From Arthrobacter hankyongi (GTDB lineage Bacteria; Actinomycetota; Actinomycetes; Actinomycetales; Micrococcaceae), in assembly GCF_022012395.1 (NCBI RefSeq), contig NZ_JAKLTQ010000007.1, positions 124,001 to 188,000 on the forward strand: 64,000 bases of DNA. The letters are read 5' to 3'. The notes beneath the pieces are model-generated. The model worked only from the letters and a program-made list of their open reading frames with translations, searched no databases and had not been told where the DNA came from. A program made the position numbers and the translations under genes. Shown one piece after another: positions 11,325 to 31,409 of this stretch. The stretch's first letter is position 1, and every line of letters begins with the position of its first letter.

Positions 11325-11356
11325 AGCCAGCTCCTTGTTCGTCAGGGCCTTGCGCG

Positions 11357-14256: not shown

Positions 14257-15756
14257 CTAGATGGCCGGCGCCGGCTCCGTCATATCGTCGTCGTCCCGCA
14301 GTGCCGCGGTCCCGGGCACGTGGGAGGTCCCGGCGCCTTCGGGCAGGACAGAGCGCCGCAGCAGGACATAGATCAGCGGCGTGAGGACAAGGGTCAGCAG
14401 GAATCCGAGCGGGAATATTCCGGTGGCGGTGAGGAAGTAGGAGACCCCGGAGCCGGCGACGACGGCGATCAGGCCCGCCCAGTTGAACCGTTCGACCTTT
14501 GCGGTATCGGCCGGGCGCCGCTTCCGGACGATGAAGAAATCGGCGATGACCAGCGCGCACAGCGAGAACGTCAGGATGCCCAGCAGCCCCAGGTACTGCG
14601 TGATGACCCCCAGGATGTTGGCCCAGACGGAAATCAGTGCGATCACGTTGGCGGCGACCACCATGGCAATCCGGTTGGGCTTGCGGCCCAGGACGGCGTC
14701 GTACAGGTTGGCCAGGGTCAGGGATCCGGAGTACGTGTTGATGACTTGGGCCTTGATCTGGGCCGCATACATGACGAGGAAGCCGAGGAAGCCGCTCAGG
14801 ATCACGAAGTAGGCCCCGGGGTTTGAATGGGCCAGGTACTGGACCTTCTCCACGATCGAGCCTCCCTGCTGGGCGGCCGCGATGCCGGCGTTGGCAGAAT
14901 CCGAGAGGAACCGGGCGACGACGGCGTCACCGGCCTGGTAAAGCAGCGCCCCGAGGGAGACGACCAGGAAGTTCACAATGATGTTGCCTCCCACGGCCAT
15001 GATTCCCACGTCCTTGGGCGTGCGGGCGTAGCGTGCGAAGTCGGCGCCGACCAGGGACAAGGCACCGGCCATGCCGATCATCATGCTCAGGACGGTCATG
15101 ATCTGCACGGGGGTCACCTCGCCGGGCCGCGCGGCCAGCACCTCCCCGACGGTAAGCCCGGACTGCTGGAAGGCAACGAACCCCACCCACAGCATGAGGA
15201 CGCCGGCAATGATGGTCAGGACGAGCGACGTCTTCTGGACTACCTTCATGCCGAAGATGGTCAGCAGGATCCACAGCAGGGACAGGAGACCGTAGATCAG
15301 CACCGCGTTGCCCAGGTTGGGTGCCCAGCCGAGCATGAAGAGCGTGCCGTAGTAGAGCAGCACGTTCTCCAAGGCCAGGAAGCCGAGGATCATGAAGGCG
15401 AAGATCAGCGAAGCCAGCGAGGACCCCGACGCTCCAAGGCCGTGGAACCGCATGCTCACGGTCGAGGACATGCCCGTGCTTTGGCTGGCGCGGCCGGTCA
15501 GCATGCCGACGGCCGACCCGAAGAGGGCCGAAACGGCGGCCATGGCGATGGCCCACTGGGTGCCGACCAGGTAGCTGGCGGTGCCGCCGATGAGCAGCAT
15601 GGCCAGTGTGGTCCCGACGCCGGCGGTGTTCGCCAGGAGCGACCAGCCGCTCATGCGCTGGCTTGCGGCAACGGGATTGAGGACGTTGTCATCCATGGCC
15701 GCTTTGAGGCCGGTGGATTCCGGGGTGGAAGGGGTGGCGTTCTGTGCAGAAGCCAT
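14257..15756 (-). CDS. NCS1 family permease (purine-cytosine/hydantoin type)
   Basis: A 499-residue membrane protein with about 12 helices of the nucleobase:cation symporter-1 family, which includes CodB-type cytosine permeases and the Mhp1 hydantoin permease. The reading frame extends upstream, but the ATG at 15756 has AAGGAG at a good distance. It follows the hydantoinase/oxoprolinase genes on the same strand, separated by a strong hairpin (15927-15963). The neighbours suggest import of a hydantoin-, creatinine- or lactam-like compound. Confidence 0.88.
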   Translation of the reverse strand: MASAQNATPSTPESTGLKAAMDDNVLNPVAASQRMSGWSLLANTAGVGTTLAMLLIGGTASYLVGTQWAIAMAAVSALFGSAVGMLTGRASQSTGMSSTVSMRFHGLGASGSSLASLIFAFMILGFLALENVLLYYGTLFMLGWAPNLGNAVLIYGLLSLLWILLTIFGMKVVQKTSLVLTIIAGVLMLWVGFVAFQQSGLTVGEVLAARPGEVTPVQIMTVLSMMIGMAGALSLVGADFARYARTPKDVGIMAVGGNIIVNFLVVSLGALLYQAGDAVVARFLSDSANAGIAAAQQGGSIVEKVQYLAHSNPGAYFVILSGFLGFLVMYAAQIKAQVINTYSGSLTLANLYDAVLGRKPNRIAMVVAANVIALISVWANILGVITQYLGLLGILTFSLCALVIADFFIVRKRRPADTAKVERFNWAGLIAVVAGSGVSYFLTATGIFPLGFLLTLVLTPLIYVLLRRSVLPEGAGTSHVPGTAALRDDDDMTEPAPAI

Positions 15757-15926
15757 GGCCGTCTCCTTGGAGTTGGTTCCGGTGCTGCGGGGCACGGGAT
15801 GCCGGCAGAATCCGGAGCGGGTGGGCCTCCTGCGGCGGCACGGCAAAGCTGCCCGCGGCGAACGGAGGCTGAGGGTGGGGCTGTTGCACCGGGCCACCGC
15901 CTGACGAGGGATAGCCGGTTTGGTTT

Positions 15927-15973: not shown

Positions 15974-18073
15974 TCAGGACAGATTCAGGCGCGCCATGAT
16001 CTGTTCCTTCTGGTCCCGCAGGTACATCACGAAGGAACCGTTGGAGTCCACGACGGTGTTGTATTCGTCCAGGACCACGATCGTGGTGGTGCCCAGTTCG
16101 ATGATGGCCGGGCCTTCCACTTCCTCCCCCGGTCCCATGGCCGCGCCCTGGTGGACGTCGGCCTCCACCATGCGGCGCTGCAGCGGGGACCACATGTTGC
16201 GGCGCTTCCGTTCCGGAACGGCGCCGCCGGAGATGGTGCCGTTCAGCGTGACCCGGTCATTGGGGGTGCGGCCGACCGCGGAGAGGCGGATATTGAGCAG
16301 GTCGATCGGCATCTCGAAGTTGTTGTAGCCGAAGAGCGCCTCGTGCTCCCGGTGGAACGCCTCGGCGAACTTCTCAACATCCGGGGCCTCCAGGTTGGCC
16401 GGGTCGACCTCGATATTCAGCTCGTACCACTGGCCCTTGTAGCGCAGGTCCACGGAGGGGACAAAGGCGATGTCCGCTTCGTCCACGCCTTCGGCCAGCA
16501 GTGTGTTCAGACCTTCGGCCGCCATCTCCTTCCACGCGGCCACCAGCGTGCCCGGGTCCAGGCTTTCCAGGCGCTGGTTGGCGCTCTGGACGTAGTCGTG
16601 CTTGAAATCGCAGACCAGCATGCCCGCGGCACAGAAGATGGAGGAGTCGCGCGGGGTGATCAGCACGGGGATTTCCAGTTCCCGGGCAATGGCCGCCGCG
16701 TGGACCGGGCCGGCGCCGCCGGCGACGACGATCGGGAAGTCGCGCGGATCCAGGCCGCGGCGGACGGTAATGTCCCGCACCCCGGCGGCCATGTTGACGT
16801 TGACGATTTCGTAAATGCCGGCGGCGGCTTCTTCCACGCTGATCCCCAGCGGGTCGGCCACGTCGGTCTTGATGGCCTGGACGGCGGCCTCCCGGTCCAG
16901 CCCGATCTGGCCGTGCAGGAACGTGTCCGGATCAATGTAGCCCAGGACCACATCGGCGTCGGTGGTGGTGGCATGCACGCCGCCGCGGCGGTAGCAGGCC
17001 GGGCCGGGCACGGCCCCGGCGCTCTGCGGGCCGACCCGCAGCAGGCCGCCCTCATCCACGGAGGCGATGGAACCGCCGCCGGCGCCGATGGTGTGGATAT
17101 CCACCGCCGGCAGGGCGATCGACCACCGGTCGATCTCGCCGTCGGTCATCACCAGGGGCTTGTTATCCTTGACCACGGCGGCGTCGAAGCTGGTGCCACC
17201 CATGTCCACGGTGATGCAGGAGTCCCAGCCGTGGGTCGCGGTAACCAGCAGCCCGGCGGTGGGGCCGGACGCCGGGCCGGACAGCAGCGACAGCGCTGCG
17301 CGCCTGGCCAGCCGCTCCGGGGTGGCAACGCCGCCGTTGGACTGCATCATCAGCAGGACGCCCTCGAACCGGACCTCGGCGAGCAGTTCCAGCAGGGTGG
17401 ACAGGTAGCTGCTGATGATGGGGCCGGCATAGGAGTTCAGCACCGCGGTGCTGGTGCGCTCATAGTAGCGGGCCTGGCCCAGCAGCTCGGCCGACTTGGT
17501 GATGTAGGCGTCCGGCATGAGTTCGGCCACGATCTGCGCGGCCCGATCCTCATGGGCCGTGGAGGCATGCGAGTGCATGAAGGAGATGGCCACGGACTCC
17601 ACGTCCTGCTCCTGCATGACGGCGACGGCGTCCCGCACATCCTGCTCGGACAGCGGCGCGACCTCGTCCCCCTTGTAGTCGATCCGGCCGGCCACCGGCA
17701 GCCGCAGGTGCCGGGGCACCAGCGGGTCGGGCTGTTCCAACCGGTTGTCGTAGGGCTCCTCGCGGGTGCCGTGGCGCATCGGCAGCACGTCGCGGAACCC
17801 CTCGGTGCCCAGCAGCGCGGTCTTGGGTCCGCGGCGGGTGAGCAGGGCGTTGGTGGTGACCGTGGTGCCGTGCACAATCAGTTCCACCCCGGCCAGGAAG
17901 TCCTCGAGGGACGTATTGTCCAGTGCGGCGATCTCCTGCAGCCCGTTGTAGACCGCAAGCGGCGGGTTGGAGGGAACCGAACTGGTCTTGTGGATGCGCC
18001 GCTGGCCGTCGGGATAAATGACCAGGAAGTCGGTGAAGGTGCCGCCGACGTCGATGCCGATTCTGATGCTCAT
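15974..18073 (-). CDS. hydantoinase/oxoprolinase subunit A (HyuA/AcxA family)
   Basis: A 699-residue ATP-binding subunit. The N-terminal domain starts with the actin-like phosphate loop 'IGIDVGGTFTDF' (about 5-16). The central hydantoinase A domain has 'TVDMGGTSFDAAVV' (about 288-301) and 'IGAGGGSIA' (about 330-338), and a C-terminal domain follows. Relatives hydrolyse 5-oxoproline or N-methylhydantoin, or carboxylate acetone or acetophenone, using ATP together with subunit B. It lies 24 bases after subunit B. Which reaction applies is not decided by sequence. Confidence 0.9.
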   Translation of the reverse strand: MSIRIGIDVGGTFTDFLVIYPDGQRRIHKTSSVPSNPPLAVYNGLQEIAALDNTSLEDFLAGVELIVHGTTVTTNALLTRRGPKTALLGTEGFRDVLPMRHGTREEPYDNRLEQPDPLVPRHLRLPVAGRIDYKGDEVAPLSEQDVRDAVAVMQEQDVESVAISFMHSHASTAHEDRAAQIVAELMPDAYITKSAELLGQARYYERTSTAVLNSYAGPIISSYLSTLLELLAEVRFEGVLLMMQSNGGVATPERLARRAALSLLSGPASGPTAGLLVTATHGWDSCITVDMGGTSFDAAVVKDNKPLVMTDGEIDRWSIALPAVDIHTIGAGGGSIASVDEGGLLRVGPQSAGAVPGPACYRRGGVHATTTDADVVLGYIDPDTFLHGQIGLDREAAVQAIKTDVADPLGISVEEAAAGIYEIVNVNMAAGVRDITVRRGLDPRDFPIVVAGGAGPVHAAAIARELEIPVLITPRDSSIFCAAGMLVCDFKHDYVQSANQRLESLDPGTLVAAWKEMAAEGLNTLLAEGVDEADIAFVPSVDLRYKGQWYELNIEVDPANLEAPDVEKFAEAFHREHEALFGYNNFEMPIDLLNIRLSAVGRTPNDRVTLNGTISGGAVPERKRRNMWSPLQRRMVEADVHQGAAMGPGEEVEGPAIIELGTTTIVVLDEYNTVVDSNGSFVMYLRDQKEQIMARLNLS

Positions 18074-18097
18074 GGGAATGGACCTTCCGGGTGGGTC

Positions 18098-19855
18098 TTA
18101 GGCGCGGAGCGCTGCGGTCTGTGCGGTGTCGACGGCGGTTCCGTCTGCGGTGAGGACGACGCCGTAGTCCGAGCGCGCCTTGTCAACCGAGAGGATGCCG
18201 TCGCGGACCTCGGCCAGGACCTTCTCGGCCGGCCGCTTGTAGGGGTCGCCGTACCCGGCGCCGCCGCCGAGCAGGGATTCGACCCTGGTCCCCGGGGGCA
18301 TGGCGATGATCTCCTTGGACCCCCATTGGCGGACCGTGCCGTCCGGGAAGGTGACCGTCATGTCGTTGAGACCGGAATCCATGCCGCCGAAGAGCCCCTG
18401 CGCCGGTACCGCGCCTTCGGCGCGGACGTTGTCGCCGAGGGTGACGCCGTGCTGGTTCTCGCCGTAGCTGACCCAGGCGGAACGCGTTCCCATCCCGCCG
18501 CGGTATTCGCCGGCACCGGCGGAGTCGGGCAGGTATTCGTGGTACTCCAGGAAGTGCGGGGAGGTCAGTTCGAACATTTCCGGGTCCGGGGCGCGCATCT
18601 GCCCCGCGGTGCCGGTGAAGCCCAGGGCGTCCCAGCCGTCGGTGCCCTGCACGCCGCCGGGGCCGGTCCGCTGGAAGACGGTCAGGGTGCCGAATTCCTC
18701 GTTGCTGCGCGGGTCGACGCCGTTGGTGGAGGTGCACAGGTACTTGTTCCAGCCCGCGGACACCCGGTCCGGGAGGATGCCGGCCAGTGCCGTCATGATG
18801 CATTCGACGACTTCGTCCGACATCTGGTTCCCGAAGACGGTGGCGGCCGGGAAGCGCGGGTTGAGCACGGACCCTTCCCGGAAGACCGTCTTAATGGGTT
18901 CGAACAGCCCCTGGTTGGTGGGGATGTTGATGTCCCCGCTGGCCATGAGCATCAGGAACGCGATCCGCACCGCGCCCTTGGCCGAGGCCGGCGGCATGTT
19001 GGTGATGCCCGGCGCCTGGTCATCGCTGGCGGAGAAGTCGAAGGTGATCTCATCGCCCTTGATTTCGATGTCGCAGGCGATCTTGTAGCGCTTGGTGGTG
19101 TCGAAGCCGTCGGAAACCATCCAGCTTTCGCCGTAGTAGTGCCCGTCGGCCCACCGGCTGACCTCGGCCCGGACCTGGCGCGCCGAGCTTGCGAGGATGT
19201 AGTTCATGTGGTTCTCGTAGACCGGCAGCGTGTAGCGTTCGATCAGCTCGCCCAGCCGGCGGGCGCCGATGGTGCAGCAGCCGATCATGGACTTGATGTC
19301 CTCCATGACGAAATCGAAGCGGATGTTCGCCGCAATGAAGTCCCACACGTCCTTGCGGAAGACGCCCTTCTCCGCGACCTTGACCGGGGGGATGCGCAGG
19401 GCCTCCTGCCAGATGTCCCGGGCGTTCGGATCGTAGCCGCCGGCGGTCATCCCGCCGATATCGGCCATATGGCCCTTCGCTGCCGTCCAGCCGACCAACT
19501 GGCCGTTGGAGAAGACGGGCATGAAGATGCCGGTGTCCGCGTTCTGGTTGCCGCCGTGGTAGACGTCGTTGTGGACGATGACGTCGCCTTCGTGGATGTC
19601 GTCCCCGTAGTAGTTGATGATGTACTCCAGGGCCGGATGGGCGCCGAAGGCGATGATGGCGGCGAATTCGGCCTGGGCCAGAGTGTTGCCGTCCTTGTCG
19701 AAGACCACGGTCACCAGGTCCCCGATTTCGTTGAAGATCGGTGATCGGGAGGACCGCATCAGCATGGTCGCCATTTCCTTGGCGATCGCGTCGACCCGGC
19801 GCTGCAGCACCGACGCCGTGATCGGATCGATCCGGTTCTCAGCATTCGTTGACAT
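18098..19855 (-). CDS. hydantoinase/oxoprolinase subunit B (HyuB family)
   Basis: A 585-residue partner subunit with family landmarks 'DKDGNTLAQAEF' (about 60-71), 'GDVIVHNDVYHGGNQNAD' (about 97-114) and a Gly-rich 'GGMGTRSAWVSYGENQ' region in the last third. The ATG at 19855 is favoured: an AAGGTGAAG sequence precedes it and it overlaps the M24 stop by 17 bases, implying translational coupling. It acts with subunit A in an ATP-driven ring-opening or carboxylation. Confidence 0.9.
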   Translation of the reverse strand: MSTNAENRIDPITASVLQRRVDAIAKEMATMLMRSSRSPIFNEIGDLVTVVFDKDGNTLAQAEFAAIIAFGAHPALEYIINYYGDDIHEGDVIVHNDVYHGGNQNADTGIFMPVFSNGQLVGWTAAKGHMADIGGMTAGGYDPNARDIWQEALRIPPVKVAEKGVFRKDVWDFIAANIRFDFVMEDIKSMIGCCTIGARRLGELIERYTLPVYENHMNYILASSARQVRAEVSRWADGHYYGESWMVSDGFDTTKRYKIACDIEIKGDEITFDFSASDDQAPGITNMPPASAKGAVRIAFLMLMASGDINIPTNQGLFEPIKTVFREGSVLNPRFPAATVFGNQMSDEVVECIMTALAGILPDRVSAGWNKYLCTSTNGVDPRSNEEFGTLTVFQRTGPGGVQGTDGWDALGFTGTAGQMRAPDPEMFELTSPHFLEYHEYLPDSAGAGEYRGGMGTRSAWVSYGENQHGVTLGDNVRAEGAVPAQGLFGGMDSGLNDMTVTFPDGTVRQWGSKEIIAMPPGTRVESLLGGGAGYGDPYKRPAEKVLAEVRDGILSVDKARSDYGVVLTADGTAVDTAQTAALRA

Positions 19856-21020
19856 GTACTTCACCTTTCGAGAGACGGTGCAGGCCGGTCGGGTGTTCCG
19901 AAAGCTTACGGCTTCCGGTTTCCTCGACGACGTAGGTATCGGCCATGTAACCGCTGGTTTGTGCCTGGACGTCCAGCACCATCGGGTGCACGGCCAGCAC
20001 ATAGCCGGCTTGGAGGGCGGTGTCCTGGGACTGGCTGCCGTCCTCGACCACGTCGAGGCCGATCCAGGGCTGTTCGAGCACGTCCAGGCCCAGGGAGTGA
20101 CCGGACCAGTAGGAGGAGGTGGCCCCCTCGGTGCCGATGGCCTCGAGGATTGAGCGCTGGACGTCCGACGGCGAGGTTCCCGGCGCCATCTGTGCCGTTG
20201 CGGCCGCCAGGCCTTTGGCCACGGCCCGGGCCATGCGCGCGTCGTCGTCCTTGGGTCGGGCGAAGGTGACCATGCGGGACAGTTCGGTCCAGTAGCCCTT
20301 GGGCCCCACGATTTCGAAGGAGAAGGTGTGGATGTCGTGGGCGGTGAGGACGCGGTCCCGCGGCGGGCCGAAGGTCGCCCCGGTCCTGTCGCCGTCGACT
20401 TCGGTATACATGGTCAGGAACAGCGGGTCCTCGCCGCCGAGCTGGTGCCCCACCTTGTACATCTCGGCGCCGATCTCCCGCTCCGTGATGCCCGGCCGGG
20501 CGATCTCCAGCAGCCGGCTGAAGCACTGGTCCAAGATGTAGGCCGATTCCTCGACGCCGCGGATTTCCGCCGCGCTTTTGACCGAGCGGACCAGTTCGAA
20601 CTGGGCCGAATAGTCGATGAACTGTGCCTGCGGATAGGCATTGGTCAGGGCAAGATACTCGTCCACCTTCAAGACCTGCCCGAGGCCGACAATGCCGACC
20701 TTGGAAAACGTGCGGCCCTTGAGGGCGTCGACCAGGCCCTGGGCGATGGTCCCTGGGAAGCGGTAGTCGCTGACCCAGCCGCTGGCCGGCCGGCGCCCGC
20801 CGATCAGGTTCCCCGACAGCACGAGCACCGGCTCCTCGTCCTTGAACATCACGGCGTTGCCGGAACGGTGGGGCAGATTGTAGTCGGCCACGTAGCGCAG
20901 CGCTCCCTTGTGGCCGCGGTAATCGTTGGCGGCAAAGATCAGGGCGTCGACGCCGTTCTCCTGCATCGATTTGTTGAGCAGGTCCCAGCGGCGGTCCCGC
21001 TCCGAAAATGAATTGGGCAT
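19839..21020 (-). CDS. M24 family protein, creatinase/Xaa-Pro peptidase-like
   Basis: A 393-residue 'pita-bread' protein with an N-terminal creatinase domain (to about residue 150) and a C-terminal M24 domain. The metal-binding pattern of true peptidases seems eroded: the usual Asp pair region reads 'SFEIVGPKGYWTELSR', and 'VLAVHPM' replaces the usual Glu-Pro segment, while 'SGHSLGLD' and 'VVEETG' remain. This resembles metal-free creatinase and related C-N hydrolases more than aminopeptidases. It heads the hydantoinase operon and is divergent from IclR, so a creatine/hydantoin-like amide is a reasonable substrate. Confidence 0.82.
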   Translation of the reverse strand: MPNSFSERDRRWDLLNKSMQENGVDALIFAANDYRGHKGALRYVADYNLPHRSGNAVMFKDEEPVLVLSGNLIGGRRPASGWVSDYRFPGTIAQGLVDALKGRTFSKVGIVGLGQVLKVDEYLALTNAYPQAQFIDYSAQFELVRSVKSAAEIRGVEESAYILDQCFSRLLEIARPGITEREIGAEMYKVGHQLGGEDPLFLTMYTEVDGDRTGATFGPPRDRVLTAHDIHTFSFEIVGPKGYWTELSRMVTFARPKDDDARMARAVAKGLAAATAQMAPGTSPSDVQRSILEAIGTEGATSSYWSGHSLGLDVLEQPWIGLDVVEDGSQSQDTALQAGYVLAVHPMVLDVQAQTSGYMADTYVVEETGSRKLSEHPTGLHRLSKGEVHVNEC

Positions 21021-21239: not shown

Positions 21240-22031
21240 ATGCGAAATACTGAGCAAGCACCCCCGCTCGATTCGGTGCACCGCGCCCTGCGGCTGCTGG
21301 TGGCCCTGCGCGACGGGCAGGTGCTCAGCGTCAAGGATGCCGCCGCCATGCTCGACGTCGTCCCCTCCACGGCACACCGCCTGCTGGCCGCCCTCTGCTA
21401 CGACGGCTTCGCCGTCCAGGACAGGGAACGCCGGTACCGGGCCGGGCCGGAGCTGGCCCACCGTGAGGAAATGCACTATCCCCCCAACCAGCTGCGCGGG
21501 GCCATCTGGCCCGCCATCGAGACGCTCAACAAGACTCTCGACGAGACCATCCAGGTGTGGGTCCTGCAGGGGCCGAGGGTGAGGTACATCGACGGGATCG
21601 AGAGCACCCAGTCCCTGAGCGTGCGCACGGCCATGTGGGACCTCGTCCCCGCCTACTGCTCCGCGGGCGGCAAGGCGCTGCTGGCCACGCTCAGCAACGC
21701 CGAGCTGGAGTCCCTCCACGCCGGCGGCCTGCCGCCGTGGCGCTCGTCCCGGATCACCTCCCTGCAAGCCCTGAAACGGCACCTGGTGACAGTGCGGCAG
21801 AACGGCTACGCGCTCAACCTCGAAGAGGCCGCCCAGGGGATTTCCGGAATTGCCGCCTGCGTGAAGGACCCCAGCGGTGGCGCGGTTGCAGGCATTTCCG
21901 TCGCTATCCCCAGCGTCCGGTTCAACCGGAAGAAGATCCCTGACTACGTCGAGGCCCTGCGCGCCGCCGTCGCCACGGCAGAGGCCGAGCTGGGCAAGCC
22001 TCCCCGGGAAACCTCCGCCGCGGCCCGGTAG
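21240..22031 (+). CDS. IclR-family transcriptional regulator
   Basis: A 263-residue regulator with an N-terminal winged helix (about 10-70: 'SVHRALRLLVAL', 'LDVVPSTAHRLLAALCYDGF') and a C-terminal IclR ligand-binding domain ('AYCSAGGKALLATLS' about 140-154, 'GISGIAACVKD' near 200). It lies between two catabolic clusters, divergent from the hydantoinase operon and 198 bases ahead of the Rieske dioxygenase operon. It may control either or both. IclR proteins often regulate aromatic degradation. Confidence 0.92.
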   Translation: MRNTEQAPPLDSVHRALRLLVALRDGQVLSVKDAAAMLDVVPSTAHRLLAALCYDGFAVQDRERRYRAGPELAHREEMHYPPNQLRGAIWPAIETLNKTLDETIQVWVLQGPRVRYIDGIESTQSLSVRTAMWDLVPAYCSAGGKALLATLSNAELESLHAGGLPPWRSSRITSLQALKRHLVTVRQNGYALNLEEAAQGISGIAACVKDPSGGAVAGISVAIPSVRFNRKKIPDYVEALRAAVATAEAELGKPPRETSAAAR

Positions 22032-22229: not shown

Positions 22230-23555
22230 GTGGTGGTTTCCCCTGAAATCTCCAGCCCCACGGCTACGGCAGCGTCGGACATCCCATGGCGCGATTATGT
22301 CCGCGGGGACCGGGTCCACCGGACCCTCTACACCGATGAGCGCGTTTTCAACGAGGAAATGGTCAAGGTGTTTGGCCATACCTGGGTGTACCTGGCCCAT
22401 GAGTCGCAGCTTCCGGAACCCAATTCGTTCGTGTCCACCAAGCTGGGCCTGCGGCCGATCATTGTCACCCGTGACCGCCAGGGCGGCCTGCACGCGGTCT
22501 TCAACCGCTGCGCACACCGTGCGGCCACGGTCTGCCGCGAGGAATCCGGCGTCGCCAAGAGCTTCCAGTGCCCGTACCACGGGTGGACCTTCAAGAACAC
22601 CGGCGAACTGGTCGGCGCCCCCTGGCCCCAGGGCTACGGGCCGGATTTCGACAAGTCCGAATTCGGCCTCGGCAAGGTCACCCGGGTCGAGTCGTACCGC
22701 GGCTTCATCTTCGGCACCCTCGGCGAGTCCGCCCCGGCCCTGGCCGACTATCTCGGCGAAGCCAGGCCGTGGCTGGACTACTGGATCGACCGGGCCCCGG
22801 AAGGGGAAGTCATCGTGCGCAGCGCGGCGCATCGGATGGGCTACCGCGGCAACTGGAAGCTCGCCTTCGACAATGCCGGAGACGGCTACCATCCCTCGTT
22901 CTCGCACCGTTCGCTGCTGGAAATGGCCTCCCGGATGGGCGACAGCAAGGACATGTCCTACTTCGGCAAGACACCGGACGACGGCCCGATGAAGGTGTAT
23001 TCGCTGGGCAACGGCCACAGCGTGATCGACCAGCGGCCCAACTTTGAGGGCCCCGGCAGCATCTGGGCCAACCAGCGCCCCCAGCCGGGCCGGGAGAAGT
23101 TCGAGGAACTGATCCGCGCCAGGTACCCCGAGGACGCCGACCGGCTGCTGGATGTCAGCGCCGGCGCGCAGATCAACCTGAGCATCTTCCCGAACCTGCT
23201 GATCATCGGCAACCAGATCCAGGTGATCGAACCGCTGAGCGTGGACCGTACCCAGCTGACCTGGAACGCCACGACGATCGGCGGGGTCCCCGAGGAAGTC
23301 AACACCATGCGCATGCGCACCCAGGAGGACTTCCCGGCCTTCGGCGAGCCGGACGACCAGGCGAACTTCGAAGAGGTCCAGCGCGGACTGGCCGTCACCG
23401 AGGAGGAATGGGTCCTGATGAACCGCGGCCTGAACGTGGACGGCTGGCAGACCATCGATGAAAACGGCGTCATCGTCACCGCCGTGACCGACGAAATCCA
23501 CATGCGCGGCTACTACGAGGAATGGCTGCGCCTGATGAACGGGGAAACCCAGTGA
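22230..23555 (+). CDS. Rieske aromatic ring-hydroxylating dioxygenase, alpha subunit
   Basis: A 441-residue catalytic subunit. The Rieske [2Fe-2S] ligands are C94, H96, C114 and H117 ('CAHRA...CPYHGW'), and the mononuclear iron site is in 'GDGYHPSFSH', with D218, H221 and H226. It dihydroxylates an aromatic ring with electrons from ferredoxin. The GTG start at 22230 follows GAGGAGG. Its stop overlaps the beta subunit start. The downstream glutamine-synthetase-like and amidotransferase genes are the mark of aniline dioxygenase clusters (TdnA1/AtdA3 type), so an arylamine is the most likely substrate. Confidence 0.93.
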   Translation: MVVSPEISSPTATAASDIPWRDYVRGDRVHRTLYTDERVFNEEMVKVFGHTWVYLAHESQLPEPNSFVSTKLGLRPIIVTRDRQGGLHAVFNRCAHRAATVCREESGVAKSFQCPYHGWTFKNTGELVGAPWPQGYGPDFDKSEFGLGKVTRVESYRGFIFGTLGESAPALADYLGEARPWLDYWIDRAPEGEVIVRSAAHRMGYRGNWKLAFDNAGDGYHPSFSHRSLLEMASRMGDSKDMSYFGKTPDDGPMKVYSLGNGHSVIDQRPNFEGPGSIWANQRPQPGREKFEELIRARYPEDADRLLDVSAGAQINLSIFPNLLIIGNQIQVIEPLSVDRTQLTWNATTIGGVPEEVNTMRMRTQEDFPAFGEPDDQANFEEVQRGLAVTEEEWVLMNRGLNVDGWQTIDENGVIVTAVTDEIHMRGYYEEWLRLMNGETQ

Positions 23556-24148
23556 GCCAGAAGGTCCAGGACTACTCCGACACATCCAGCTGGTCCTACC
23601 ACGTGGACGAATCCTTCTATGCGGACCTGGACCGCTTCGGCGAGGTGCTCCGGGCCGACTGGCCGGCGGCCGGTGTCCAGACCGCCCGGGAGGCCGAGGC
23701 CTTCCTGGCCCGGGAGGCGCGCCTGATCGACGAGGGCCGCTTCAACGACTGGCTGGAGCTCTTCGGCCCGGACTGCCTGTACTGGGTCCCCATCACCCCG
23801 GGGGGAGGCGATCCGCGCCGGGAGGTCTCGCATGCCTTTGACGACTGCCGCCGGCTCACCGACCGGGTCTACTGGCTGCGCACCGGGCTGGCCTTCAGCC
23901 AGATCCCGCAGTCCCGCACCCGCCGGGTCATCGGCAACGTGGAGGTCCTGGACGAGCCGGGCAGCGGACTGCGTTTCATCCGCTCCAACTTCATCGTCAA
24001 CGAGTTCCGAGCCGGAGTCGCCAAGACGTACACCGGCTGGTACGGGCACGTGCTGGCACCGCAGGAGGACGGCTGGCAGATCCGGCTCAAGCAGGCCAAT
24101 CTGCTCGATTCGGAGCAGATCCATGAAAACCTCACCCTGGTCTTCTAG
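23552..24148 (+). CDS. ring-hydroxylating dioxygenase, beta subunit
   Basis: A 198-residue small subunit of the NTF2-like fold that shapes the alpha3-beta3 enzyme but has no metal. Typical features are 'EAFLAREARLIDEGRFNDWLE' in the N-terminal third (quoted in part), the aromatic-rich 'CLYWVP' and the basic 'SRTRRVIGNVEV' segment. The GTG at 23552 overlaps the alpha stop as GTGA, so the two are translationally coupled. Confidence 0.92.
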   Translation: MSQKVQDYSDTSSWSYHVDESFYADLDRFGEVLRADWPAAGVQTAREAEAFLAREARLIDEGRFNDWLELFGPDCLYWVPITPGGGDPRREVSHAFDDCRRLTDRVYWLRTGLAFSQIPQSRTRRVIGNVEVLDEPGSGLRFIRSNFIVNEFRAGVAKTYTGWYGHVLAPQEDGWQIRLKQANLLDSEQIHENLTLVF

Positions 24149-24162
24149 CGGGCGGCCGGACA

Positions 24163-24453
24163 ATGACTGCACATGAGGACGACCACGCCGCCGAGCTGGA
24201 GCGGCTGCGGCGGGAAAACAACCTGCTGCGGCAGCAGGTGCACCGGCTCAAACGCGAAGCCGCCAGCATGCGCCCGGTGGTCGCCGAGGTCAAACGCCTG
24301 AAAATCTGGGACTTCACGCCCTACGCGACCACGCCGGACGATTCCTGGCTGGCCCTGGACCGGGTCAGCGCCATGGACCTGATGCGCGCCCTGGCCGGAA
24401 CGGACCACTGGCAGCCCTGGCAGTCCCGGATCGAACCAAGGCTGCAGCCGTGA
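24163..24453 (+). CDS. small coiled-coil protein in the dioxygenase operon, function unknown
   Basis: A 96-residue protein with a heptad-rich N-terminal half (about 8-48: 'ELERLRRENNLLRQQVHRLK') and a conserved-looking C-terminal half with several Trp and the segment 'DSWLALDRVSAMDLMRAL'. I recognise no family. It sits between the beta subunit (14-base gap) and the amidotransferase (GTGA overlap), so it is surely part of the operon. It could be an assembly factor or scaffold for the amine-activating enzymes or dioxygenase. Confidence 0.75.
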   Translation: MTAHEDDHAAELERLRRENNLLRQQVHRLKREAASMRPVVAEVKRLKIWDFTPYATTPDDSWLALDRVSAMDLMRALAGTDHWQPWQSRIEPRLQP

Positions 24454-25169
24454 CCGGCACCGGCGGCGAGGTCCTGGTCATCACCCATTTCGACGGCGCA
24501 GACCTGAGCTGGGTGGACCGGCTGGTCCGGCAGCAAGGCCTGGCGTGCCGGCGGGTCCAGCCGTTCGCGGGGGAAGCCTTGCCGGAGCCGGACCGCGCGG
24601 CGGCAGTCATCTGCCTGGGCGGCCCGCACAGTGCCTACGACGATGCCGGGCACCCCTTCCTGGCCGCGGAACAACAGTTCCTGCGGCGCGCCGTCCAGGC
24701 GGACGCTCCGGTACTGGGCATCTGCCTGGGCTCGCAGCTCCTGGCCCAGGCCCTGGGCGGCCGGGCGCTTCCCGGCACCCGCGGACTGGAATGCGGATTC
24801 ATCGACGTCCGGCCCGTGCAGGCACCGGTCCCCGGCGCCGTGGAGACGGCCGTCCCCGCCGGTCTGGACGGGCGTTTCTTCTCCTTCCACACCGATACGT
24901 TCATCCCTCCGGCAGACGCCGAACTGCTGGCCGTCTCGGACCGGTATCCACAGGCCTGGCGGCTCGGCTCCGCCCTGGCCATCCAGTTCCACCCGGAAAT
25001 CTCCCCCGCAGGAATCCGGCAGCTGCTCGCCCTCGAGGAAGACAAGCTGCGCAGCTACGGCATCGACGTCGACGACGTCATCGCCGAGGCTGCGGCAGCC
25101 CGGGACACCGGCTGGGCCGGGGCACAGCGGATCATCGGAGGCTGGCTCGCCGGCCGCGTCAGCGTCTAG
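24450..25169 (+). CDS. class I glutamine amidotransferase-like protein (TdnT/AtdA2-like position)
   Basis: A 239-residue GATase-1 domain with an intact triad: C92 in 'GICLGSQ', H181 and E183 in 'QFHPE'. No synthetase domain is attached. In aniline clusters the equivalent protein (AtdA2) hydrolyses gamma-glutamyl-anilide, protecting the cell from build-up of the conjugate made by the synthetase-like partner. The GTG start overlaps the previous stop. That function is assigned by operon position plus catalytic residues. Confidence 0.85.
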   Translation: MTGTGGEVLVITHFDGADLSWVDRLVRQQGLACRRVQPFAGEALPEPDRAAAVICLGGPHSAYDDAGHPFLAAEQQFLRRAVQADAPVLGICLGSQLLAQALGGRALPGTRGLECGFIDVRPVQAPVPGAVETAVPAGLDGRFFSFHTDTFIPPADAELLAVSDRYPQAWRLGSALAIQFHPEISPAGIRQLLALEEDKLRSYGIDVDDVIAEAAAARDTGWAGAQRIIGGWLAGRVSV

Positions 25170-25229
25170 GAACACACCATCCACCATCCGGCAGCTTCCG
25201 CTGCCGCACGACCACTTCAAGGAGCAGCC

Positions 25230-26723
25230 ATGTCCAATACCGGCAAGTTCATCCACAAACACGGCATCTACACCGCAGAGCAACTCGAGGCCGCAGAACG
25301 CAGCCGCACTGCCCTCGACACCGAAAACATCGAGATCGTCCGCCTCGTCTGGCCCGACCAGCACGGCCTGCTCCGCGGCAAGTCCGTCACCAGGGAGGCC
25401 TACCTGGCGTCCCTGGAGTCCGGGATGGACATCACGATGGCGCCGTTCTTCTTCGATACGGCCAACGGCATCGTGCTCAACCCGTTCTCCGCCGACGGCG
25501 GGTTCGCCATCGAGGGCCTGGGCGGCAGCCCCAACGTCAAGATGGTCCCGGACCCCGGCACCTTCACCGTCCTGCCGTGGGTGGAGGAAACAGCCGTCGT
25601 CATCTGCGACCTGTACATGTCCGACGGCCGGCTGTTCCCGTTTGCCCCGCGCTCGATCCTCAAGAATTCCCTGGGCAAGATGGCTGACAACGGCTACGGG
25701 CTGGTCGCGGGCATCGAGATGGAGTGGTATCTGACCCGGCTCGTCGACGACATGCTCGAGCACGGGTCGCTCGGGGCCCCGGGTTCCCCGGCCGACCCGC
25801 CGAAGGTGGCCCCCGTGGCGCGGGGCTACAACTACCTGCTCAGCGACCACCTGGACGAGATCGACCATATGCTGCGGCCGATCCGCAAGGCGCTCGTGTC
25901 CATGGGCCTGCCCCTGCGCTCCCTGGACGACGAATGGGCGCCGAGCCAGGTGGAGACCACCTTCGACGTCCTCGAGGGCCTGGCTGCCGCCGATGCCGCC
26001 GTGCTCTTCCGGATGGCGGTCAAGCAGATCGCCAAGCGCCACGGCCATATCGCGTCCTTCATGTGCACGCCGGCCATCCAGGGGTTCTACGCCAACGGCT
26101 GGCACCTGCACACCTCCGTCGTCGACCTGTCCACGGGCGAAAACCTCATGGTGCCCTCCTTCGACGAGCCGCTGTCCGACCTCGGCCAGCACTACGTGGG
26201 CGGGACCCTGGAGCACGGCATTGCCGCCTCCGTCTTCACCACGCCGACCATCAACGGCTACCGGCGCCGCCGGCCCTACTCGCTGGCACCCGACCGGCTG
26301 ACCTGGGGCCAGGACAACCGCGCGGCCATGATGCGCGTGATCTCGGCTCCGGGCGACAAGGCCTCGCACGTGGAGAACCGGGTCGGTGACTCGGCGGCCA
26401 ACCCCTACCTGTACATCGCAGCCCAGGCCGCCGCCGGGCTGGACGGAATCCTGAGCAAGACCAAGCCGGGCCCGCTCAGCGAAGACCCCTACACCCAGAA
26501 CGTCCCGCAGCTTCCCACCACCCTGGCCGACGCCATCGACGCCCTCGAAGCCGATACCTTCTACCGGCAGGCCTTCGGCGGCACCTTCATCGACTACCTC
26601 GTCACCATGAAGCGCAGCGAGGTGGCCAGGTACGAAGCCTGGGTGGCCGAGCATCCGGACTCCGAGAAGTACGTCAACGGCGTCACGGACTGGGAGCACC
26701 GCGAGTACTTCGAGGTGTTCTAG
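25230..26723 (+). CDS. glutamine synthetase-like gamma-glutamyl-amine ligase (TdnQ/AtdA1-like)
   Basis: A 497-residue enzyme of the glutamine synthetase superfamily. The N-terminal beta-grasp carries 'VRLVWPDQHGLLRGK', the catalytic domain 'GIEMEWYL' (about 165-172), 'GWHLHTSVVDLSTGEN' (about 290-305) and 'ENRVGDSAANPYLYIAAQ' (about 386-403). Length and divergence from housekeeping GlnA fit the ligases that join glutamate to an amine (AtdA1, IpuC, PuuA) using ATP. In this operon it probably activates an arylamine for the dioxygenase. It has an AAGGAG site and a 60-base gap from the amidotransferase. Confidence 0.87.
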   Translation: MSNTGKFIHKHGIYTAEQLEAAERSRTALDTENIEIVRLVWPDQHGLLRGKSVTREAYLASLESGMDITMAPFFFDTANGIVLNPFSADGGFAIEGLGGSPNVKMVPDPGTFTVLPWVEETAVVICDLYMSDGRLFPFAPRSILKNSLGKMADNGYGLVAGIEMEWYLTRLVDDMLEHGSLGAPGSPADPPKVAPVARGYNYLLSDHLDEIDHMLRPIRKALVSMGLPLRSLDDEWAPSQVETTFDVLEGLAAADAAVLFRMAVKQIAKRHGHIASFMCTPAIQGFYANGWHLHTSVVDLSTGENLMVPSFDEPLSDLGQHYVGGTLEHGIAASVFTTPTINGYRRRRPYSLAPDRLTWGQDNRAAMMRVISAPGDKASHVENRVGDSAANPYLYIAAQAAAGLDGILSKTKPGPLSEDPYTQNVPQLPTTLADAIDALEADTFYRQAFGGTFIDYLVTMKRSEVARYEAWVAEHPDSEKYVNGVTDWEHREYFEVF

Positions 26724-26744
26724 CCCTGCCGGACAAAAACCATC

Positions 26745-26778
26745 GTCCCGGTGCCGCTTCCGCCGGCGGCACCGGGAC
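26745..26778 (+). terminator. intercistronic hairpin, synthetase/ferredoxin
   Basis: A perfect 13-bp stem (26745-26757 with 26766-26778) and 8-base loop, 22 bases after the synthetase-like gene and 40 before the ferredoxin. It may set lower levels of the electron-transfer genes or stabilise the upstream mRNA. Confidence 0.5.
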
Positions 26779-26817
26779 ACCGCAGCACAGAACCGACAGA
26801 TAAGCAGGTCGATCCCC

Positions 26818-27138
26818 ATGCCCAAAATCATTCTCCGTTCCCCCGACGGGAACCTGCACACCGTGGACGCCCGCGTCGGGGCCTCCGTGATGGAAACCGC
26901 CGTCAAACACGGTGTCCCCGGCATCGTGGCCGAATGCGGCGGGGCGCTGTCCTGCGCCACCTGCCATGTGTATGTGTCCGGCTCCTGCCTGGAACGGACC
27001 GGCACGGCGGAGGATTTCGAAGACGAGATGCTCGACGACGCCGCCGCCGAGCGCCGTCCCAACAGCCGGCTCTCCTGCCAGATCCGGATGTCCGACGAGC
27101 TCGACGGGCTCGAGGTCGAGATTGCCCCCGAACAGTGA
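26818..27138 (+). CDS. [2Fe-2S] ferredoxin, putidaredoxin/adrenodoxin type
   Basis: A 106-residue plant/vertebrate-type ferredoxin with cluster ligands C40, C46, C49 and C87 ('ECGGALSCATCHVY' and 'LSCQIR'). The spacing (C-x5-C-x2-C-x37-C) is that of putidaredoxin. It passes electrons from the downstream FAD reductase to the Rieske dioxygenase. This three-component arrangement differs from Gram-negative aniline dioxygenases, which use a single flavin/iron-sulfur reductase. Confidence 0.93.
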   Translation: MPKIILRSPDGNLHTVDARVGASVMETAVKHGVPGIVAECGGALSCATCHVYVSGSCLERTGTAEDFEDEMLDDAAAERRPNSRLSCQIRMSDELDGLEVEIAPEQ

Positions 27139-27146
27139 AGGAACCG

Positions 27147-28403
27147 ATGGACATGGATACCGCCGAGACCGGAACGCTGATCATCGGTGCCGGTGAAGCC
27201 GGGCTCGGCATCGCCGTCGCCCTGCGGAACGCGGGGTACACGGCACCAGTCACGATCAGCGGATCGGAAGCCGACGCGCCCTACCAGCGCCCGCCGCTGT
27301 CCAAGGAGTTCCTCGCCGGCGAGATGGACGAGGAGAACCTGCTCCTGCGGGCCAACAATTTCTACCAGGACAAGGAAATCCGGCTGCTGACCAACGCGCA
27401 CATCGAGGACATCGTCCTGGACGACAATGCCGCAGGCGGAACCGCCACCACCTCGTCCGGCACCGAAATCCGCTTCGACAGGCTGGCGCTGGCCACCGGC
27501 GCCAGCCCGCGGCGCCTGCCGGTACCGGGCGCGGACCTGGACGGGGTCTGCTACCTGCGGGACATCCCGGATGCCCGCCGGCTGCGCGGCCTGCTGCCCG
27601 AAGCCAGGCGGGTCGTCGTCGTCGGCGGCGGCTACATCGGGCTCGAGGCCGCAGCGGTCGCGCGGACGCGCGGCCTGGAGGTCACCGTGGTGGAGACCTT
27701 CGAGCGGCTGCTGCAGCGTGTGGCCGCACCTCCGATATCGGAATTCTTCCGCGCCGCCCATGAAAAGCGCGGGGCCAGGGTGCTGCTCGGCGCCTCGGTA
27801 ACGGCCCTGCAGGGATCCGCCGGCAGCGTGACCGGCGTGGAGCTCTCCGACGGCACCGTGCTTCCTGCCGATCTGGTGATCATCGGCATCGGGGTCGAGC
27901 CCCGGATCGAACTGGCCCAGAAGCTGGGACTTGACTGCGGCCGCGGAATCATCGTCGATGACGCGGCGCGGACCAGCAACCCGGCCATCGTGGCCGCCGG
28001 TGACTGCACGATGCAGCCGCATCCGCTCTACCCCGGCGAGTTAATCTGCCTCGAATCGGTGCAGAACGCCGCGGACCAGGCCAAGGTGGCGGCCGCCTCG
28101 CTGCTGGACGGCCCCCGGCCGGAGCGCGCCGTGCCCTGGTTCTGGTCCAACCAGGCGGACATCAGGCTGCAGATTGCCGGCCTGTCGGCGGGCTTCGACG
28201 ACTACGTGATCCGCGGCGAGCCCGGTTCCGAGCAGTTCACCGTGCTGTACTACCGCGGCGGCCGCCTGATTGCCGCCGACGCCGTCAACAGCCCGCATGA
28301 CTTTATGGCAGTCAAACGTGCCCTCGGCAAGGGAGCGACAATCGACCCCGCCGACGCCGCCAACGTGGGCGTCCAGCTCAAGACCCTGATCCGCGAAACC
28401 TGA
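27147..28403 (+). CDS. FAD-dependent ferredoxin reductase
   Basis: A 418-residue NADH:ferredoxin reductase of the putidaredoxin-reductase type, with an FAD motif 'IIGAGEAGLG' near residue 11, 'LATGASPR' near 118, a second NADH motif 'VVVVGGGYIGLEAA' (about 153-166), 'AAGDCT' (near 285) and the C-terminal 'WFWSNQADIRLQIAG' lid. The frame is open further upstream, but the start is ATG 27147 or the in-frame ATG 27153, both just after AAGGAA. It is nine bases after the ferredoxin, its partner. Confidence 0.92.
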   Translation: MDMDTAETGTLIIGAGEAGLGIAVALRNAGYTAPVTISGSEADAPYQRPPLSKEFLAGEMDEENLLLRANNFYQDKEIRLLTNAHIEDIVLDDNAAGGTATTSSGTEIRFDRLALATGASPRRLPVPGADLDGVCYLRDIPDARRLRGLLPEARRVVVVGGGYIGLEAAAVARTRGLEVTVVETFERLLQRVAAPPISEFFRAAHEKRGARVLLGASVTALQGSAGSVTGVELSDGTVLPADLVIIGIGVEPRIELAQKLGLDCGRGIIVDDAARTSNPAIVAAGDCTMQPHPLYPGELICLESVQNAADQAKVAAASLLDGPRPERAVPWFWSNQADIRLQIAGLSAGFDDYVIRGEPGSEQFTVLYYRGGRLIAADAVNSPHDFMAVKRALGKGATIDPADAANVGVQLKTLIRET

Positions 28404-29294
<891 letters not shown>

Positions 29295-29312
29295 CCACCG
29301 CAATCCGCCTGA

Positions 29313-29349
29313 CGCACCGCCCTCTCAGCCTGCCGGAGGGGGTGGTGCG
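29313..29349 (+). terminator. imperfect hairpin after catechol 1,2-dioxygenase
   Basis: A GC-rich stem of about 12 pairs with two wobbles (29313-29324 with about 29336-29349), 18 bases after the stop. Probable partial terminator before the next gene. Confidence 0.45.
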
Positions 29350-29410
29350 GCATGTCCACGAACCGCCGGCGGCGGCACCCCTGCGTAGTGCACGGTCAAA
29401 GGAGATCAGA

Positions 29411-30148
29411 ATGTCAGCCAGAATCGGCATCCCCGTCCGCCTCAGTGATCCGGCGCTGGACAACCGCGTGGCGGTAGCCAACCGTCTGATCGGATTCATT
29501 ACCGACCACGTCAGCGCCGCAGGCGGCACTCCGGTACCACTCACTCCGGAATCCTGGGCCGCCGGACCGGCCATCGACGGGCTGCTGCTGCCCGGCGGCG
29601 GAGACCTGCACCCCGGCTGCTACGGCCAGGAACCGGATCCCCGCGTTTATGACACCAATCCGGCGCAGGACGACCTCGATTTTGCCGCCGCCCGGCATGC
29701 CCTCGCGGCCGGGCTGCCCCTCTTCGGCATCTGCCGCGGCATGCAGCTGATCAATGTGCTCTACGGCGGCACCCTCATCCAGGACCTGCCGCCGTCGGAA
29801 GTCGACCACCGGCACCGGCGCACGGCGGACCCTGCCGGCGCCTTCACCCGGCACCCGGTCGACATTGCCCCCGGTTCCCGGCTTGCCGGCCTCCTGGGCA
29901 CCACGGCCCCCACCGCCTCCGCCCACCATCAGGCCGTCGACCGCCTCGGCGGCGGCCTGATGGTCACGGCGCGCGCGGCCGACGGCTGCATTGAGGCCAT
30001 CGAGGATCCGGCGCGGCAGGTCCTGGGCGTCCAGTGGCATCCCGAGATGCTGGCCGGCGAAGATCCCAGGCAGCGGGCTCTGTTTGAGGCCCTGGTGGAC
30101 GCTGCCGGGCAGAAGAAACGGATGCAGCCCTCGGGAAACCTCTGCTAG
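29411..30148 (+). CDS. gamma-glutamyl-amide hydrolase, peptidase C26 (PuuD family)
   Basis: A 245-residue class I amidotransferase-fold hydrolase. The N-terminal 'RIGIPVR', the oxyanion-strand motif 'GLLLPGGGDLHP' (about 57-68), the nucleophile C108 in 'FGICRGMQ' and 'VQWHPEM' near the C-terminus mark the gamma-glutamyl-GABA hydrolase family. The ATG at 29411 has GGAG at a good distance. It is a second gamma-glutamyl hydrolase in the same operon as the class I amidotransferase, so it may release glutamate from an oxidised gamma-glutamyl intermediate. Confidence 0.88.
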   Translation: MSARIGIPVRLSDPALDNRVAVANRLIGFITDHVSAAGGTPVPLTPESWAAGPAIDGLLLPGGGDLHPGCYGQEPDPRVYDTNPAQDDLDFAAARHALAAGLPLFGICRGMQLINVLYGGTLIQDLPPSEVDHRHRRTADPAGAFTRHPVDIAPGSRLAGLLGTTAPTASAHHQAVDRLGGGLMVTARAADGCIEAIEDPARQVLGVQWHPEMLAGEDPRQRALFEALVDAAGQKKRMQPSGNLC

Positions 30149-31156: not shown

Positions 31157-31333
31157 CCCATCCCCCATCACTCGTGCCTGAGGTCCAGCCTACGGCCCCG
31201 TTCCCCCGGTTCCGATTCCCAGTCAGGCACAACGACGCAGCGGCGCCCTCTGCAGGCATCCGAGGAACTAGTTCCGCACTTCTTTGTCGAGTAAAAAATC
31301 TTCTTGACCATGCCGCACGCCACTCGTACGATT

Positions 31334-31357: not shown

Positions 31358-31409
31358 AGTTGGCAGGTCGGCTCACTTTCGGGCCGACCACGACGGAAAG
31401 GGTTTGGAT

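Follow-up and report, generated by a model that had tools for sequence, protein, structure and literature searches.

What is an aniline-type oxidation operon for in Arthrobacter hankyongi, and from which compound would its arylamine come? The question is raised by a 64,000-nt stretch of the genome of this actinobacterium (contig NZ_JAKLTQ010000007.1, positions 124,001 to 188,000; hereafter the window, with positions counted from its first letter), in which genes for a Rieske oxygenase, a glutamine synthetase (GS)-like ligase and a catechol 1,2-dioxygenase (CatA) lie together at 22230-30148. A preliminary description, made from the letters of the window, had taken these genes for a distinct actinobacterial arylamine pathway. 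Our analysis places them among known aniline systems and connects them with their upstream neighbours: the operon is likely to be the lower half of a larger locus that resembles the ska cluster of Rhodococcus and includes a lactam-opening module (HydAB with an M24-fold protein and an IclR-type regulator) and a flavoprotein monooxygenase block.

All nine genes of the preliminary description are present on the forward strand in the order that it gave, that is, the alpha and beta oxygenase subunits, a 96-aa protein, a class I glutamine amidotransferase (GATase), the ligase, a ferredoxin, a ferredoxin reductase, CatA and a C26 protein. Their profile E-values lie well beyond chance expectation (Gln-synt_C 2e-76, Rieske 3e-18, Dioxygenase_C 2e-66, Peptidase_C26 9e-52) and the catalytic motifs are intact: CxH-x17-CxxH (Rieske) and DxxH-x4-H (facial) in alpha, GICLG and FHPE in the GATase, GICRG and WHPE in the C26 protein, and the cysteines of the ferredoxin. 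The beta start codon overlaps the alpha stop by 4 bases, and an overlap of the same length joins the GATase start to the end of the 96-aa gene. The order from alpha to reductase is kept in all 12 related actinobacterial clusters compared here, a set of nine loci from a pattern-based contig scan and three plasmids that does not comprise all clusters in existence; the scan used exact short query peptides (32 stretches matched, 9 confirmed) and may miss distant actinobacterial clusters. In one cluster (L016) an IS3 element splits the GATase gene, and another stretch (L008) ends 1.9 kb past the reductase gene, so that absent neighbours there say little. At E 1e-150 the ligase turned up in 2 of 10 genus genomes, 2 of 295 family genomes and 1 of 396 phylum genomes, each count including the genome under study.

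Among solved structures, the ligase has its closest relative in NpaA1 of Pseudomonas JS3066 (8wwu; E 1.4e-173), and the second-best entry is at 1.3e-45. NpaA1 attaches glutamate to aniline and naphthylamines, and the associated dioxygenase acts directly on the glutamylated amine (PMC11335346). In an alignment to NpaA1 taken from its own plasmid (L019), in which 12 checked residues match the published numbering (PMC11335346), the ligase retains three aromatic residues of the tunnel (F75, F86, W235) and E234, which binds the amine; position 232 is Asp, not Glu, throughout the 13 actinobacterial rows, which also agree at the 12 pocket positions that were compared, apart from Ile/Val at 81. Position 201 is Tyr, as in AtdA1; given this residue and the CatA gene that follows, 1-naphthylamine is not favoured as a special substrate. 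Identities of the ligase are 50-58% to full-length proteobacterial aniline-type members and 73-92% to actinobacterial ones, and those of alpha are 45-53% to proteobacterial GS-linked alphas and 75-95% to the 12 actinobacterial alphas. A plasmid search with alpha gave 309 records at E 1e-40 or better; among the 60 of these 309 that are listed, all 21 with an alpha identity of at least 45% also have a GS-like match, and the other 39 have an alpha identity of at most 38.3%, which also bounds the best listed matches in records without a GS-like one. In a maximum-likelihood tree the 13 actinobacterial GS sequences are grouped with a support of 98/100; the alpha and GS trees, built from proteins excised with heuristic starts that were all written as M, were used for grouping and not for rooting, given their long branches. 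To judge from these sequence comparisons, the ligase is a member of the gamma-glutamyl-arylamine synthetases and alpha belongs with the aniline dioxygenases. Structure, profile and plasmid searches and the trees agree with the preliminary description in placing both with arylamine systems and not with GlnA/PuuA or the benzoate/anthranilate dioxygenases, and the contrary groupings that it had named did not appear in these sequence comparisons. Very probably, the operon serves to oxidise aniline, or a simple arylamine, through the glutamylation route.

The same gene set has been published for Rhodococcus sp. DH-2 (PMC11596033), and the pathway is not supported as a new one. The 7855-bp cad cluster of this strain holds cadA1, cadA2, cadB1 (ferredoxin), cadB2 (reductase), cadQ (GS-like), cadT (GAT-like) and catA, and is described as highly similar to that of AN-22; catechol and cis,cis-muconate were detected as products, and aniline induced cadA1, cadA2 and catA (PMC11596033). 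The window has the equivalent alpha, beta, separate ferredoxin and reductase, GS-like, GAT-like and catechol 1,2-dioxygenase genes; compared by gene set only, it differs in the small protein, the C26 gene, HydAB/M24 and the monooxygenase, of which the consulted parts of the cad description make no mention (PMC11596033). The separate electron chain and the ortho cleavage, to which the preliminary description had drawn attention, are borne out by the genes (Fer2; Pyr_redox_2/Reductase_C; CatA with 492 bits against a curated TIGR02438 cut-off of 404), and because the cad arrangement is in print (PMC11596033), they are features of a known type. In profile search the reductase is HcaD/AndAa-like, with scores under the cut-offs. 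Among the proteobacterial systems AtdA1-A5, TdnQTA1A2B and NpaA1-A5, compared through pNB8c, pTB30 and JS3066, the GS-like ligase (52-58% identity), the class I GATase, alpha (47-51%) and beta are shared with the window. In contrast to the window, pNB8c and pTB30 have the order GS, GATase, alpha, beta and a single FNR-type reductase; in place of this single reductase of the proteobacterial Atd/Tdn form, the window has a Fer2 ferredoxin and a Pyr_redox_2/Reductase_C reductase, as cad does. What is added here is a conserved link to a lactam-opening, perhaps skatole-type, upper pathway.

Divergent from the operon, and outside the scope of the preliminary description, lies the module at 14257-21020. 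The arrangement hydA-hydB-M24-IclR is found beside alpha in six of the 12 relatives, namely in Arthrobacter mangrovi, three Cryobacterium, Nocardioides SLBN-35 and Geodermatophilus sabuli, and the clusters with HydAB fall into four families of Actinomycetota and two separate branches of the GS tree. An IclR homologue is present in the locus of eight relatives, in L016 downstream of catA. Between the window and one relative (L006), HydA is 75% and GS 74% identical; HydA is thus as diverged as GS, as expected for parts inherited together. At E 1e-200, three of the 295 family genomes and one of the 396 phylum genomes have hydA, the genome under study being among them in both counts; a search of 26 genomes of one further genus at E 1e-190 found none and is uninformative. 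Among the nine cluster genomes, six have a hydA of at least 75% identity, always at the cluster, and other HydA-like matches reach at most 47%. The best solved relative of HydA is 6yra, printed as 5-oxoprolinase. ATP-dependent lactamases include N-methylhydantoinase and the N-methylpyrrolidone and 2-oxoindole-acetate lactamases. The arylamine reading of the preliminary description is right in kind for the operon and incomplete for the locus, since the conserved upstream module points to a substrate upstream of aniline. We hold it fairly probable that the lower half works together with HydAB-M24.

The M24-fold protein carries S, E, H, H and then A or S at the five metal-ligand places in all seven orthologues, and does not keep the D, D, H, E and E of a metal-dependent M24 peptidase. 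The first four places were located by alignment to prolidase 3q6d, whose ligands we take to be those of this series; the fifth follows what is presumably the M24 consensus. The structural model best matches creatinase 1kp0, prolidases and ectoine hydrolase, and the dimethylsulfoniopropionate (DMSP) lyase DddP was also matched; the model has a mean predicted local distance difference test score (pLDDT) of 76, the low-confidence segment 304-332 holds one active-site motif, and the five models differ much. As for transport, an NCS1 permease gene adjoins hydA in the window and in three relatives (L001/L035, L006/L038, L007/L039), and in Cryobacterium ATP-binding cassette (ABC) transporter-like genes, identified by eye, take its place. 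A. mangrovi has a second M24-hydA-hydB trio (L036 3334-8293, G005:C15), with 28%, 46% and 41% identity to that of the window; some 8 kb separate it from the first, and ABC transporter-like genes adjoin it.

Farther upstream, at 9984-13935, lies the monooxygenase block. The monooxygenase is closer to 7z4x (208 bits), which we take to be an indole monooxygenase (IMO), than to StyA 3ihm (57 bits), has a Smoa_sbd domain, and is 33% identical to the SkaMO-type enzyme of an Acinetobacter (L052). Its homologues in all three Cryobacterium are 67-69% identical and lie about 10 kb upstream of alpha, a distance that is 8.3 kb in the window; in one of them (L034) gene calling gave only the short-chain dehydrogenase (SDR) of the block, and the monooxygenase came from a separate search. 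The SDR is 68-69% identical in the three Cryobacterium (L032-L034) and 59% identical to one beside the Nocardioides SLBN-35 cluster (L038). At E 1e-60 the genome under study is the only one of 295 in the family to have the monooxygenase; a plasmid search gave 23 records, the best at 36%; it was not found in N. limicola or Granulicoccus, and Gordonia has a 37% homologue only. Its fingerprint positions 46/48/50 read G-A-I, which is neither the styrene monooxygenase (SMO) nor the IMO pattern, as stated for SkaA (PMC13101512); the anchor row departs at position 96, and positions after 76 are unsure.

The 14-gene ska cluster of Rhodococcus is induced by skatole. It encodes the group E monooxygenase SkaA, the flavin reductase SkaB, a regulator of the LuxR type and a three-component ring-hydroxylating oxygenase (skaCDFG, interrupted after D by skaZ and skaE); Arthrobacter and Cryobacterium are among the genera in which homologues of at least 40% were noted (PMC13101512). 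By kind of gene only, the window is like this cluster of R. aetherivorans DMU1 and R. ruber R1 in its monooxygenase, ska-type flavin reductase, LuxR regulator and three-component oxygenase (PMC13101512). Unlike ska as published, the monooxygenase block and the oxygenase operon of the window are divergent with HydAB-M24 between them, and the consulted main text of the ska paper is without the words 'hydantoinase', 'glutamine synthetase' and 'catechol' (PMC13101512). The Acinetobacter locus, on a plasmid from pig manure, is like the window in having a monooxygenase, flavin reductase, SDR, Rieske oxygenase, ferredoxin and reductase, and it also has an acetamidase/formamidase gene nearby. By eye its gene spacing matches that of p38 genes 1684-1690, of which 1687 together with 1688 degrades skatole (PMC11434297). 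A skatole- or indole-type heterocycle is our tentative candidate for the substrate of the window locus, held with slightly less than even confidence. The title of a preprint reportedly links aniline dioxygenase to skatole. The features of the three parts of the locus are listed in Table 1.

Table 1. Predicted features of the monooxygenase block, the HydAB-M24-IclR module and the aniline-type operon.
Feature	Position	Strand	Evidence or remark
Flavin reductase, StyB/SkaB type	9984..10508	-	PF01613 3e-41; homologue in Cryobacterium L032, L033
Short-chain dehydrogenase (SDR)	10539..11360	-	
GAF-LuxR regulator, SkaR-like by kind	11357..12469	-	PF00196, PF13185; homologue in Cryobacterium L032, L033
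Group E flavoprotein monooxygenase, StyA/indole/skatole type, SkaA-like	12535..13935	-	PF17885
NCS1-type permease	14257..15795	-	PF02133; TIGR00800 under cut-off
HydA, hydantoinase/oxoprolinase A subunit, ATP-dependent lactamase type	15974..18073	-	PF01968 4e-88
HydB, hydantoinase/oxoprolinase B subunit	18098..19864	-	PF02538 9e-137
M24 (creatinase/prolidase fold) protein without usual metal ligands	19839..21020	-	sequence and model matches
IclR-type regulator	21240..22031, start possibly 21276	+	PF01614, PF09339
Rieske oxygenase alpha subunit, aniline-dioxygenase type	22230..23555	+	PF00355, PF00848
Rieske oxygenase beta subunit	23552..24148	+	PF00866 3e-27; GTG start
96-aa protein, N-terminal coiled coil and conserved tail	24163..24453	+	
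Class I GATase, PRK07053-like	24450..25169	+	nucleophile and HPE motif present
GS-like gamma-glutamyl-arylamine ligase	25230..26723	+	NpaA1 (8wwu) E 1.4e-173; pocket residues
Intercistronic hairpin, ligase/ferredoxin	26745..26778	+	14-bp stem, z -3.8
[2Fe-2S] ferredoxin	26818..27138	+	PF00111
FAD ferredoxin reductase	27147..28403, start possibly 27135	+	PF07992, PF14759
Catechol 1,2-dioxygenase CatA	28434..29294	+	TIGR02438, over cut-off
C26 gamma-glutamyl hydrolase family protein	29411..30148	+	PF07722 9e-52

How the locus might work we infer from the family membership of its proteins. In the lower half, the GS-like ligase would join the arylamine to L-glutamate with ATP, and electrons would pass from NAD(P)H through the FAD reductase and the ferredoxin to the alpha/beta oxygenase, which would dioxygenate gamma-glutamyl-anilide to a product that collapses to catechol and, presumably, glutamine. 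The GATase, and perhaps the C26 protein too, would hydrolyse excess gamma-glutamyl-anilide; CatA would cleave catechol, and CatB and CatC encoded elsewhere in the genome would continue. Contig C34 carries a CatB candidate (57% identity to that of a Cryobacterium) and, close to it, a CatC (60% to that of Nocardioides limicola), and the genes predicted for the first three ortho-cleavage enzymes are thus present in the genome. In the relatives, CatA lies near the operon in eight clusters, and CatB and CatC also adjoin in four (L002, L003, L005, L017). In the upper half, the monooxygenase, flavin reductase and dehydrogenase would convert skatole or another indole to an oxindole, HydAB would open the lactam with ATP, and the M24-fold protein may help to release the arylamine; the steps from oxindole to aniline are an assumption of ours.

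The point at which the two halves meet can be narrowed by comparing clusters with and without HydAB. A different amine in the clusters with HydAB would be expected to leave residues in the ligase and oxygenase that set the two kinds of cluster apart. The columns that separate them number none of 503 in GS, none in beta, none in the ferredoxin and one of 459, a conservative change, in alpha. Because GS and alpha hardly differ, aniline itself is the likely junction of the two halves; a side chain must then be removed on the way, and the M24-fold protein is a free candidate for this task. That it makes aniline by C-C cleavage is a speculative idea, more easily wrong than right by far. The complete route from skatole or a 3-alkyl-indole to catechol through free aniline is just as speculative: the monooxygenase and SDR would make a 3-hydroxy-3-alkyl-oxindole, HydAB with ATP would turn this into a 2-(2-aminophenyl)-2-hydroxyalkanoate, and the metal-less M24-fold protein, as a C-C lyase, would protonate the ring carbon and yield aniline and a 2-oxo acid (pyruvate from skatole). 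DMSP lyase DddP is a precedent for a lyase on the M24 fold.

Several observations weigh against a joint ska-like locus. The monooxygenase was not found in A. mangrovi, Nocardioides SLBN-35 or Geodermatophilus, which keep HydAB-M24; the SDR of SLBN-35 adjoins another flavin monooxygenase, and a permease or ABC transporter separates the monooxygenase block from the HydAB module. The likeness between the window and ska is one of composition alone, and no GS-like ligase or HydAB is annotated in the 13 kb read of the Acinetobacter locus. HydA and HydB share the architecture of the caprolactamase CapAB, and their scores as its alpha and beta subunits (684 and 355 bits) are both below the cut-off of 1000. 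The CatB candidate is under the TIGR02534 cut-off and matches to this family occur in 13 of 14 control genomes as well, so that its naming rests on identity and the nearby CatC. Long branches and open forks limit the alpha tree, and 6 of 448 columns of the reductase separate clusters with HydAB from those without. Six of the 12 clusters are without HydAB, three of them on plasmids of soil, water and moss isolates; moreover, a genome of the same genus (G008), the third of the family genomes with this hydA, has hydA and hydB at 62-66% identity but gave no match to GS at E 1e-150, and the 14 kb read there hold no M24 gene, which shows that HydAB can occur apart from the ligase cluster. Such a distribution, and the description of the DH-2 cluster as an aniline cluster (PMC11596033), would suit a plain xenobiotic aniline operon next to which HydAB-M24 and the monooxygenase are unrelated catabolic genes in a variable region. 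We nevertheless find this unlikely, as the order and orientation of hydA-hydB-M24-IclR beside alpha are kept in four families of Actinomycetota, the divergence of hydA matches that of GS, and this hydA is rare elsewhere.

Two further possibilities accept the lactam-opening module and differ in the amine that it delivers. The ligase might act on an ortho-substituted arylamine from lactam opening, the side chain being lost during or after dioxygenation: HydAB acting on a 3-alkyl-oxindole would yield such an amine, 2-(2-aminophenyl)propanoate or the 2-hydroxy derivative being examples, and on chemical grounds retro-aldol cleavage could remove a hydroxylated side chain as pyruvate. The near absence of separating columns in GS and alpha and the pocket that is alike in 13 rows except for position 81 speak against this, and we judge it improbable. 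No better placed is the proposal that HydAB, M24 and NCS1 import and open a non-indole lactam, hydantoin or cyclic urea with an N-aryl group and release aniline directly, the monooxygenase block being separate. The permease beside hydA in the window, L001, L006 and L007, the action of HydAB relatives on lactams and hydantoins, and the likeness of the M24 model to creatinase and ectoine hydrolase, which are C-N hydrolases, are all compatible with it, but Cryobacterium swaps the permease for ABC transporter genes while keeping the monooxygenase block, and we know of no natural source of N-aryl lactams, no search for one having been made. As to a benzoate/anthranilate dioxygenase with a PuuA/GlnA-like ligase, this assignment takes its support from the best NCBIfam names, benA and gamma-glutamylputrescine synthetase; the scores fall far short of the cut-offs (242 of 781 bits and 249 of 650), the structure and plasmid searches place both proteins with arylamine systems, and the assignment was dropped as almost certainly wrong.

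Returning to the operon within the ska-like locus, the gene of the 96-aa protein is present in all 12 clusters. The protein has an N-terminal helix (coiled coil) and a tail of the form WDFTPY...DHWxPW...IEPRPQP, with 17 invariant columns in 13 sequences (the L004 row is cut at the C-end). Searches against Pfam gave weak coiled-coil-type matches, none over the cut-off for the window protein, and those against PDB sequences and folds gave coiled-coil-type or no meaningful matches; the AlphaFold2 model (pLDDT 70, predicted template modelling score 0.44) is too weak for a meaningful fold search. At E 1e-5 the only match in 266 phylum genomes is that of the operon itself, and at E 1e-3 none was found in the proteobacterial pNB8c, pTB30 and JS3066 clusters. 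In two Rhodococcus Rieske operons, the small open reading frames that follow beta bear no visible likeness to it. Our guess is that the protein binds or orders the oxygenase or the ligase; being kept in every cluster compared, it could be a missing part when such dioxygenases are expressed in other hosts.

The GATase is probably, by its sequence, a gamma-glutamyl-arylamide hydrolase and the counterpart of TdnT/AtdA2. It is of class I with intact motifs, and its subfamily differs from that of the proteobacterial ones: it is PRK07053-like, and the two proteobacterial GATases tested (30-34% identity) are PRK09065-like, which leaves the parallel drawn in the preliminary description incomplete. The additional C26 hydrolase gene is real, but only two of the 12 relatives (L001, L015) have one. 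The strong hairpin between the ligase and ferredoxin genes, whose coding strand is without a T-run, recurs at the same place with other stem sequences in three of the four relatives folded (L001, z -4.3; L002, -6.4; L004, -3.6), and that in L015 is not significant (z -0.3); L003, L005-L009, L016 and L017 were left out. It may serve to tune how the two halves of the message are expressed or how stable they are. A scan for promoters and terminators gave the level of shuffled sequence (promoter-like 1 against 1.0 expected, terminator-like 4 against 4.4).

Related gene pairs occur outside the Actinomycetota. Plasmid pn1 of the lichen cyanobacterium Nostoc sp. UHCC 0926 (L020), an unannotated record, has beta, alpha and GS-like genes together, at 48, 60 and 47% identity to those of the window, and its alpha is closer to that of the window than any proteobacterial alpha among the plasmid matches listed (60 of 309). 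On rhizobial plasmids of Shinella (L021) and Rhizobium BG4 (NZ_CP044126.1) a GS-like ligase gene adjoins that of a Rieske alpha, and the Shinella set also has alpha/beta hydrolases and a gamma-glutamyl hydrolase family gene; these rhizobial pairs suggest natural arylamine substrates. Elsewhere in the window, a second block at 31332-37367 holds an SDR, a flavin reductase, a luciferase-like monooxygenase, an SDR, a permease and a TetR-like gene (by eye), and no homologous block was seen in the stretches read of the other clusters. A gene at 7099-8031 matches 3,5-dioxohexanoate:acetyl-CoA acetone transferase (NF053538, 546 bits, cut-off 430) within a cluster of LacI, major facilitator superfamily, SDR and glycerate kinase genes. 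Finally, the region 52821-64000, where the GC content drops to 0.53-0.62 at 54-62 kb, suggests a restriction/defence island with a REase_II/IetA-like gene (52821-53813), a C5 cytosine methyltransferase (58825-60198), an NsnA/PD-T4-2-like protein (60698-62125) and a helicase-like gene cut by the end of the window (63477-64000).

Aniline dioxygenases are usually studied as degraders of pollutants, and lactam-opening partners in four families would imply a natural job for them. HydAB-M24 would supply candidate genes for the steps of skatole degradation after 3-methyloxindole, the later steps being stated as unresolved in the ska report (PMC13101512). If the complete route were true, aniline would be a natural metabolite, the presence of an aniline dioxygenase in skatole degraders would be explained, and the M24 fold would have gained a new reaction.

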